NCBI RefSeq assembly: GCF_030463535.1
Contig: NC_132880.1
Span: 35,419,842 to 35,483,841 of the forward strand
Length of the DNA: 64,000 nucleotides
From: Salminus brasiliensis
Taxonomy: Eukaryota > Chordata > Actinopteri > Characiformes > Bryconidae
Direction: 5' to 3'
The notes under the pieces were generated by a model, which was not told the origin of the DNA, did no database searches, and was given only the letters and a program-made list of their open reading frames with translations. This document shows, piece after piece, positions 46,201 to 49,222 of this stretch; position 1 is the first letter of the stretch; each line of letters opens with the position of its first letter. The translations under genes and the position numbers were made by a program.

Positions 46201-48332
46201 ATAATTAATTACTTATAATTACTTATACTTATAATATATTAGTATTAATAATAATAATAATTATATATATATATATTATAATTATTACTACATGTTGTAG
46301 GTCAGATTTTCAACTCTAAGTTTTAAAAACTTGATTATTTTAGGGCATCACTGGACTATCCTTTGAACTGGATTTATTATACAAATCTGACGCTAAATAG
46401 CAATGCACATCGCTCACTATTATATTCAAGAAATGTGCAATTTCTACATAAATGTGCATTTCTACATAACTTTGCAAGAAATGGTTCTCTAAAGGTGTTA
46501 CTTTACAGTAGATATCTACTTTTGAAACAAGTCTAATGTTAAAAGATGATTCACACAAACTGAACAAATAACACAAAAAGACACAAACCTTTCAACAAAG
46601 GAGTCCAGTTTGGCAAGCTCATCTGACAGGCCTACAAGGACATCAAGTGTTCCCACCTATAAAGAAAAACAACAACATTCACTAAAACACATGGAAACTT
46701 AGGTCTTAGGTTCTTATGCCAGTCTACAAAGCCTGCATACGAAATTGTGGGCCATTGCCAACATCCTGCACTTTTCATGTAAGTATACAGTATAGATGCA
46801 GATGCTGATGCATAGCTGCTTGCACAATTTTTAAATTGGGACCAAATCCTTCTGGTTCAGCATTACAGAGAAATATAACCTGTATTTCTGTACTGTTACA
46901 AAAGCAGTAATCAAGTAAACAAATATTTTAGCACAGTAGCCCAGTATCATCTAAATGTTCTGCTCAAACAAACAAAAAAAAAAGCAAATCTAAACACCTG
47001 CCTGATGCTGATCTGTTTGAAGCAATTCTCTGATTTCTGATTCCGGACTCATTTGACCAGGTTGCATTTTTGCAGGCTTCAGCCTCAGCTTTCTGTTCCT
47101 GGCTGACCGAAGCCATCTGCATGCAGCACATCTGCTTAAGGGTTCAACTTGTTGTGCATTCTGAGATGCTTTTCTGTTCACCACGGTTGTACAGAGTGGT
47201 TATCTGTAGCCAGTAGAGTTCCTGTAGCCTTGAAACAGTCTGGCCACACTCTCTAAACGTCCCTGGATCTTTGGACCACTCATTGTTTTTTTATTTATTC
47301 TGATACTGTAGAGACAGACGTGCACAAAAACCCCAGCCCACATCACAACCACACTTCAAATCACTGAGACCACCCCCCCTTTCTGATTCAAAATCACCTG
47401 AAGCTTCAGGCTTGTATCTGAGTTTATCTTCATTTCTCAACACTTTGTAATACTTGAGTAATCTGATCAGTACCATTAATATGCTTAAAGTATGGTATAG
47501 TACACTTAACAAGCCATTATGTTTTTGGTTATTCAACTGCTGTAGTTATTAAGTGTTAAGGGCAGTGGTGGCTCAGCGGTTAGAGCGCCGGGCTATCGAT
47601 AACAGGGTTGTGGGTTCGATTCCTGGGCTTGGCAAGCTGCCACTGTTGGGCCCTTGAGCAAGGCCCTTTACCCTCTCTGCTCCCTGGGCTCCCTGAGTTG
47701 GCTGCCCACCTCTCTAGGTGTGTGTGTACTCACTGCCCCTAGTTCACTAGTGTGTGTGTTCACTACCACAGATGGGTTAAAGGCGGAGGACACATTTCGC
47801 TGTACAGTGACAAATACGTGCACCTTTACTGGTCTCTCACTACTGCAGAGATCATGATGGTGGGGTGCGTTCACTTCACGAAAACGTGCTCCATAAATAG
47901 AGCTTTCCTGTCTATCAGGTCTTGTTTATTTTTGTGCTGATTTCCATTACCTTGGTTTACATAGTGTAAAATCCAGCCATGAAATAAGTACTTGGAGATC
48001 ATCAAATTGTGCAAAACTGAAGCTTTCTGAAGACAACTGATACTAGTCCAGATACGGCTTCCGTGAACAGCATCGTGAACACTGTAGTGAACGCTGCCTT
48101 CTAGGATCAGCTCACTTCGAATGTACCGAGTTCTCCAACCATAAAACCTCAACATGTGGTGTTCTTCAAAGACAGAAACAAAAGGCCGAAACTTCACCTT
48201 TAGGTCTGGAATGCTGAATTTGCTGTTGGTGGACAGGTTGCTGTTGGTGTGAGTGGTGGCGATGTTCATCTTATCCCATGTCTGCTGACAGGTCTTCTCT
48301 CCAGGAGCAGATATGAGCCAGAATTCAGCCAT
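40252..48332 (-). CDS. atp6v1c1: V-type proton ATPase subunit C 1
   Basis: Subunit C bridges the peripheral stalks of the V1 sector and the V0 ring; its release and rebinding control V-ATPase assembly. Coding exons: 48332-48198, 46656-46589, 45969-45884, 45711-45617, 45503-45412, 45233-45135, 43900-43832, 42635-42543, 42334-42241, 40769-40672, 40552-40429, 40347-40252. Together they are 1149 nt, 382 residues plus stop, exactly the human length, and every junction keeps phase with GT-AG sites. The start [19 protein letters not shown] is the conserved N-terminus; the ATG context is GCCATGG. Other landmarks: [75 protein letters not shown] and [17 protein letters not shown], ending IDLNLLDFK. It is divergent to azin1 and co-directional with baalc. 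The a/b paralog is not determined. Confidence 0.98.
42964..43202. repeat. Tandem array of an about 80-bp unit in atp6v1c1 intron
   Basis: Three consecutive units begin GGGGTATAAA at 42965, 43045 and 43127. They share CAGCATTGG, CTGTGGAGCACTGGG, CTGTGTTC and AGTATTGGAG. A partial fourth precedes them (GAAGCACTGGAGCTCAATAC). Related internal sequence (GGTATACAG...AGCTGTGGAGCAGTG) occurs in the miniature elements at 1039-1507 and 51380-51829. It lies in the intron between exons 43900-43832 and 42635-42543. Confidence 0.85.
43691..43775. repeat. Imperfect stem-loop in atp6v1c1 intron
   Basis: AAAACACTGCGTTAACACAA at the left and TATTGTGTTAAAAAACACTG at the right pair imperfectly over about 20 bases, with a loop of about 35. 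It starts roughly 60 bases past the donor of the exon ending at 43832. No function is assigned. Confidence 0.45.
47561..47826 (+). mobile_element. tRNA-derived SINE, copy 2
   Basis: Same family as 15645-15925: A box TGGCTCAGCGG, B box GGTTCGATTCC, body GCAAGCTGCCACTGTTGGGC then CCTTGAGCAAGG, tail GACACATTTCGCTGTACAG and GTGCACCTTTACT. It sits in the first coding intron of atp6v1c1. Its 3' end lies about 13 bp from the start of the left inverted-repeat arm. Confidence 0.9.
47840..48130 (+). repeat. Left arm of the about 290-bp inverted repeat at atp6v1c1
   Basis: From CTACTGCAGAGATCATGATG to CACTTCGAATGTACCGAG this segment is the reverse complement of 48924-49222, with scattered differences and a few small indels (I judge roughly 85% identity by eye). 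It lies 68 bp past the donor of the first coding exon. The TATA-like motif of the right arm is CATAAATAG here. Confidence 0.9.
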
Positions 48333-48369
48333 GGCTTCTCTCAGACAGTGCATCAGACCAGGGAATCTC
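48333..48369 (-). other. atp6v1c1: atp6v1c1 5' UTR part of the first coding exon
   Basis: An acceptor TGTTATAG lies at the 48370 boundary, 37 bases upstream of the start codon. A non-coding first exon is therefore expected upstream. A candidate donor (GCAGG/GTAAAT) at about 48896 would close that exon. An in-frame ATG upstream at 48353 would add [12 protein letters not shown] residues not seen in the family, so the later ATG at 48332 is preferred. Confidence 0.6.
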
Positions 48370-48895
48370 CTATAACATAAAATCAAACACGGTCATTGAG
48401 CTCAGGATTGGGGAAGGAGCTGAGAATAGATCTAGAGAATACTGCTGTACATATGTGACAGGGATTTGATCTGACAACTGTCTGCCTGCAGTTTCACGTT
48501 TCCTCGTTTATTCCTCAAATAGCAGTCACGAGTTTCCTGATCATAAGGACAGACTGTATGAGCCAGCTGCTGCAGCTGGTGTGTTATTGTGTTATTTAGA
48601 TACACTATTCAAATTAAACATCAAATACAGTGTCTGGACTTTAAACGCACACCTAAAACGCAGTTCACTAGTATGAGAGTCGGTGTGTATAGCAGTCGAT
48701 GCTGGCCAATGTCCCTTTTTACTACGAGCCTAACGCTACACAGGAGAGTCACGAACATGGGATAAGCTACTGATATTTATGTGTACATACATACCGTTTA
48801 GGGTTTACAGACTCAGTAAACCAAACCACGATAAAATAATGATTATATTGCCTATTTCAGCTATTAAAAGAAAACAGACGGTGTCGGTTATTTAC

Positions 48896-49200
48896 CCTGC
48901 TGCCACAGAGATCACAGACCGTGCTCAATACATTCAAAGTCAGCTGATCTAAGAAGGCAGCGTTCACTACAGCGTTCACCGTGCTGCGCCAAAGCCGTAT
49001 CTGGACTAGCGCCAGTTAGCTTCAGAAAGCTTCAGTTTCGCACATTTTGATAATCTCCAAGTATATATTTCACGGCTGGATTCCAGATTTTACACTACGT
49101 AAACCAAGTTAATGGATATCAGCACACAAAAAAAAGGAAAGTCTAAATCGACAGGGAAGCTCTATTTATAGGGCACATTTTCGTGAAGTGAACGCACCCC
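48896..49200 (-). promoter_or_regulatory. Probable atp6v1c1 promoter and leader exon
   Basis: On the minus strand a TATA-like CCTATAAATAGAG lies at about 49160-49172. About 265 bp further downstream is a GCAGG/GTAAAT donor (exon end about 48896), which would join the acceptor at 48369. Repeated GTGAACGC and GCGTTCACTTCACG motifs flank it. The whole segment coincides with the right arm of the inverted repeat described separately. The transcription start is inferred, not shown. Confidence 0.45.
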
Positions 49201-49222
49201 ACCATCATAATCTCTGCAGTAG
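48924..49222 (-). repeat. Right arm of the about 290-bp inverted repeat at atp6v1c1
   Basis: The reverse complement of this arm begins GCTACTGCAGAGATTATGAT and runs through GGGGTGCGTTCACTTCACGA, CCAGATACGGCTT and GTAGTGAACGCTGCCTTCT, matching the left arm in order. It overlaps the inferred atp6v1c1 promoter and leader exon. The spacer between the arms is about 793 bp and contains the first coding exon. Confidence 0.9.

Follow-up and report, generated by a model that had tools for sequence, protein, structure and literature searches.

The atp6v1c1 locus and its inverted arms

The window, by which we mean the whole 64,000-nt stretch analysed here (Salminus brasiliensis, GCF_030463535.1, NC_132880.1, positions 35,419,842 to 35,483,841), carries on its minus strand a gene for V-ATPase subunit C1, atp6v1c1. 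In support of this assignment, a peptide of 96 aa, joined across three coding exons, matched the Pfam family V-ATPase_C (E 1.7e-28) and the subunit C1 chains of the PDB (best E 6.1e-47). The start-codon exon lies within the 803 bp that separate two long arms in inverted orientation (Table 1), and both its own splice sites and the plausible leader-exon donor after 48896 look good as sequence. Note that an in-frame ATG (48351-48353, minus strand), located seven codons before the usual start codon, might extend the translation by MHCLREA.

A plus-strand exon at 61.7 kb matched antizyme inhibitor 1 and ornithine decarboxylase about equally well (E 7.6e-14 and 1.1e-13, respectively), and its Pfam match fell below the cut-off; since azin1 and atp6v1c1 are neighbours in human, this exon was taken as azin1. 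The window also contains a KIND-domain exon (30067-30465, minus strand, E 5.2e-25), which we take to be probably that of a spire gene, inside a CpG-rich zone at ~30.0-30.6 kb; the 3' element of a UnaL2 LINE (12357-12410, minus strand), the window's sole Rfam match at gathering score; and, upstream of atp6v1c1, a tandem array (52535-52991) of 14.7 copies of a 31-bp unit.

Table 1. Features at and around the inverted arms (positions are those of the window)
Feature	Position	Strand or orientation	Basis and remarks
SINE, separated from the left arm by 10 bp	47560..47829	+	genome candidates; represented in the window by two longer copies and a piece of 67 bp
Left arm, probably the derived copy, lying inverted in the intron that follows the start exon	47840..48125	+	alignment, genome matches, motifs, CpG
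Pair I3	48068-48130 and 48924-48986	inverted	spacing 793 bp
Start-codon exon of atp6v1c1	48198..48369	-	Pfam, PDB, splice sites; start codon 48332-48330
Putative leader exon	48896..49135	-	sequence; assumed start ~30 bp downstream of the TATA box; donor CAGG|GTAAAT
Right arm, putative core promoter and most of the putative leader exon of atp6v1c1; probable source	48929..49222	-	alignment, genome matches, CpG
E-box-like ATCAGCTGAC	48939..48948	-	right arm; part of an 11-base word also present in the second atp6v1c1 gene's CpG-rich zone
TATA-box-like TATAAATA	49163..49170	-	right arm; role putative, from sequence
Second inverted pair of the window, upstream of the gene	53308-53660 and 55268-55613	inverted	72% over 371 columns, 1,607 bp apart

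The arms, which the preliminary description had put at about 290 bp each, were recovered at the same coordinates when the window was compared with itself by BLAST (E = 1.3e-72), and they were also seen as pairs I1-I4. Aligned in opposite orientation (47840-48125 against 49222-48929), they show 247 matches, 37 mismatches (22 transitions and 15 transversions) and 12 gap columns, an identity of 87% (247/284 ungapped columns) and a K2P distance of 0.144, with a longest exact block of 31 bases. No clustering of the differences along the arms was shown, since 9.6% of 5,000 shuffles were as clustered. The spacing of 793 bp reported earlier is that of pair I3, and the alignable inner edges leave the 803 bp given above; the left arm starts 67 to 72 bp past the end of the start exon, depending on the edge chosen (68 bp in the preliminary description). 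On its side, the right arm includes ~50 bp above the TATA-like box and, at its other end, stops 33 nt before the leader donor. A third copy of either arm was not found in the 64-kb window, where the next-best match had E ~0.5.

Two other accounts of this arrangement were considered. Misassembly is disfavoured by the 13% divergence of the arms, which makes a duplicate created by the assembly unlikely. An inversion by staggered breaks was rejected because the enclosed exon runs in the direction of the gene: the coding exons tested read on the minus strand in 3/3 cases, so the segment between the arms is not itself inverted.

Copy number of the arms and the second atp6v1c1 gene

The genome search of an arm that the preliminary description had proposed was run against the assembly from which the window comes (1,066,335,885 bases, 103 contigs), and it returned two matches per arm, the arms themselves. 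Thus, the left-arm query matched the left and the right arm in the 1.07-Gb assembly, and the right-arm query, taken with its flanks and with E allowed up to 10, matched the right and the left arm. The 803 bp between the arms matched themselves and one locus on contig C1, the latter by the coding exon alone. This search scores the best candidates alone and passes over very common words, so that controls matter, and what we say about a third copy is valid at its sensitivity. As controls, the SINE next to the left arm yielded 3,549 first-look candidates genome-wide, with 40/40 of those scored matching, and the window's other inverted pair yielded 23 matches at identities as low as 67%, a count that includes its own two arms. 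Since these controls found their copies, a repeat family to which the arms belonged should have shown up, and the two matches per arm point to one local inverted duplication rather than to a transposon family.

To set the pair against its background, a total of 284,000 bases (7,433 of them N) was scanned for inverted pairs with arms of at least 150 bp and at most 3 kb between them. It was made up of the window, a 20-kb region around the second atp6v1c1 gene and 20 background stretches of 10 kb, placed at round coordinates on 17 contigs. The 20 background stretches held two inverted pairs, both of them genome-wide repeats (1,606 and 275 candidates, 40 scored each), and the window held the present pair and the 23-match repeat. 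The pairs of the second-gene region, taken as a group, had 77 to 107 hits each. A pair shown to be unique was found in 0/20 background stretches, a sample too small to give a rate.

Long inverted arms around one segment do look like a transposable element, and the three other inverted pairs examined in this genome are repeats. DNA transposons and MITEs with long terminal inverted repeats are a known class, and the present locus shares with them two long inverted arms bounding a segment; it differs from them in consisting of one pair in the genome at the sensitivity of the search and in the target-site duplication, which was not found. An old, low-copy element whose inverted ends are the ~290-bp arms and which took up the exon or supplied the promoter, the main alternative in the preliminary description, is accordingly disfavoured and in our judgement very unlikely. 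Against it stand the two genome matches per arm, obtained with sensitivity controls in place, and the enclosed 803 bp, which match themselves, the coding exon of the second gene and nothing else. The outer flanks, GTCTCTCA and CTTTCTGG, inspected by eye, share no common end of 1-8 bases that could be a target-site duplication, taking the aligned arm edges as the true edges. Short terminal inverted repeats within the right arm (its outer end against its leader-exon end) did not stand out either, as 11.8% of 5,440 window comparisons scored at least as high. Exact arm patterns were found 0 times in the viral contigs and 0 times in the genome contigs collection, a result of little weight for vertebrate sequence.

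The locus on contig C1, at 95.915 Mb, is a second atp6v1c1 gene; over query residues 1-49 the identity is 81%, and such a second copy is expected of teleost gene pairs. When the 20 kb around it were compared with window positions 47000-50400, the coding exon alone aligned (E 2e-32) and the rest had E of at least 0.2; the arms had no match above chance in these 20 kb. The second gene has a CpG-rich zone of its own at about 95911800-95912800, with weaker zones also present. An 11-base word, GATCAGCTGAC, is common to this zone and the right arm and is altered in the left arm; TCAGCTGACTT, taken from the same site of the right arm, is found in that zone as well, and the left arm reads GATCAGCTCAC at this site. 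We treat the sharing of GATCAGCTGAC as a hint, as simple arithmetic predicts ~0.3 shared 11-base words by chance. Note that the start exon of the second gene is itself bracketed by an inverted pair (L013 and L014, C1:95909901-95910481 and 95916825-95917417; 595 columns, 93.6% identity), one member of which has 30-bp inverted ends, and this pair looks like a mobile element.

Putative promoter motifs, CpG setting and the probable direction of copying

The preliminary description had the right arm overlap the inferred promoter and the leader exon of atp6v1c1. The words on which this was based do exist, both the TATA-box-like TATAAATA (49170-49163) and the donor CAGG|GTAAAT (exon end 48896), and from them we infer the roles of core promoter and leader exon. 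A TATA box is unusual in a V-ATPase gene, and in the zone 95911500-95912900 of the second gene every TATAWAWR match is downstream of the likely donor. For these two reasons the start site of atp6v1c1 could lie elsewhere than the putative TATA site would place it. Within the arms, TATAAATA is present in the right arm alone, the left arm reading CATAAATA at that position, and TATAWAWR has no match in the left arm; a second match in the region starts at 49318, outside the arms. The E-box-like site is also altered, ATCAGCTGAC having ATCAGCTCAC (48106-48115) as its left-arm counterpart, with CAGCTC in the left arm against CAGCTG in the right.

The CpG setting of the arms differs as well. In 400-bp windows starting at 48601, 48701 and 48801, over the right arm and intron 1, the CpG observed/expected ratio is 0.97, 0.94 and 0.91, compared to a median of 0.32 for the window; the value of 0.97 is a local peak, seventh-highest in the 64 kb, with six listed windows above it. 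Over the left arm (400-bp windows starting at 47701, 47801 and 47901) the ratio is 0.50, 0.62 and 0.43, and between the arms it drops to 0.24. The right arm is therefore in what looks like the promoter zone of the gene, a zone that reaches past the arm into intron 1, and the left arm looks like a raised patch in a CpG-poor intron. In total, 12 CpGs were counted in the right arm and 9 in the left; at 5 sites the right arm has CG and the left CA or TG, and at 3 sites it is the other way, a balance that favours neither direction.

Since the right arm lies in the CpG-rich zone and TATAAATA is found there alone, we are fairly confident that the right arm is the source and the left arm a decaying copy, a polarity read from CpG setting and motifs rather than from an outgroup. 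The opposite direction, in which the left, intronic arm would be the original and the right arm a copy turned into the present promoter and leader, is compatible with CpG decay at the 3 sites that are CG in the left arm and TG in the right. We consider it very improbable, because the CpG-rich zone continues beyond the right arm into intron 1 and the word common to the second gene sits in the right arm.

The same motifs bear on whether the left arm could be an active promoter, sending antisense RNA through the start exon. It is correctly oriented for this, and the copy holds the TATA region and ~50 bp above it. However, it carries CATAAATA for TATAAATA and an altered E-box-like site, lacks a TATAWAWR match and lies in CpG-poorer surroundings, and no intact core promoter elements were encountered in it. 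Promoter activity of the left arm is made less likely by CATAAATA, CAGCTC and the CpG-poorer setting, and, judged on these motifs, antisense transcription from it would be highly improbable.

Probable origin of the duplication and predicted folding of the transcript

Our results are best accounted for by one local inverted duplication of ~290 bp of the putative core promoter and leader of atp6v1c1, with a neutral left copy; to this account as a whole we give a probability of roughly 0.7. In a single local rearrangement, ~290 bp of the core promoter and leader exon would have been copied, inverted, into the next intron at a point ~70 bp beyond the end of the start exon. Such a copy would probably have arisen by a template switch during replication or repair, or by templated insertion where the DNA was broken; the junctions are too diverged for proof. 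The right arm would then be the original promoter and the left arm a drifting copy under no selected function. Template switching makes nearby perfect inverted repeats, according to a study of such events (PMC7954356), and MMBIR/FoSTeS-like switching resembles the present case in that nearby sequence is copied once, inverted, and hairpin-capable repeats are left. The events treated in that paper (PMC7954356) are short-range and come from great apes, whereas here the copy is ~290 bp, the distance ~1.1 kb and the junction signatures are lost to divergence. An earlier description of this duplication was not found among the titles and abstracts of the literature matches listed.

The sequences flanking the arms were also compared. 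A split of the left arm by the SINE was rejected: the sequence to the left of the SINE scored 17 against the outer flank of the right arm (shuffle mean 19.4; 270/300 shuffles as good), and the few bases between SINE and arm gave no match either (103/300 as good). The inner flanks have one 12-base block in common, CTTATCCCATGT, inverted between the start exon (~48269-48280) and intron 1 (~48757-48768; 2/300 shuffles as good). Though nominally significant, this block is probably due to chance; it lies inside the coding exon and off the line of the arm edges.

The preliminary description had also proposed that the pre-mRNA folds into a hairpin around the start exon, and as a prediction this holds. 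With the start assumed at 49135, the predicted transcript fold contains 183 arm-to-arm pairs at -537.5 kcal/mol, compared to a mean of -351.7 (sd 6.8) kcal/mol for shuffled arms (n=10), and both intron 1 and the start exon lie in its loop. For the region 47800-49240 the predicted fold has -652.4, a value with no shuffles for comparison. The arms of the pre-mRNA could in principle pair as an imperfect duplex that encloses the start exon, and skipping of that exon, circular RNA, editing or antisense transcription would be possible outcomes.

If the pair were functional, the paired arms would loop out the start-codon exon, and the resulting skipping, circular RNA or ADAR editing would tune V-ATPase C1 output. 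The excess of the predicted fold over the shuffled arms fits with this, as does the case of C. elegans zip-2, where back-splicing and exon skipping are promoted by reverse complementary matches (RCMs; PMC8330042). Exon-flanking inverted repeats that promote these two outcomes, such as inverted Alu pairs and the C. elegans RCMs, resemble the present locus in that one exon is flanked on either side by arms that can pair; they differ from it in that here one arm occupies the putative leader exon and promoter rather than an intron, unlike the usual circRNA layout. Moreover, any inverted duplication gives a strong fold, and we regard such a function as unlikely. More specifically, the inverted promoter/leader copy might act as a self-made switch, in which transcripts started at the TATA site would form a long duplex that removes the start-codon exon, or would meet antisense RNA, and V-ATPase C1 output would so be lowered in certain tissues; this model we hold to be very unlikely. 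Were either to operate, it would illustrate how a small rearrangement may equip a housekeeping gene with a built-in hairpin or with an antisense brake.

Under the local duplication that we favour, the left arm probably has no special function and is neutral. The locus offers a clean, single-copy natural case for asking whether an inverted promoter copy is tolerated beside a start exon. As a minor observation, the start-exon frame runs on without a stop for 324 nt beyond the donor (47874-48197, minus strand), spanning most of the left arm. The intron part of this frame matched no Pfam family, and an open stretch of 327 nt was met at 73 of the 18,192 positions sampled in the window.
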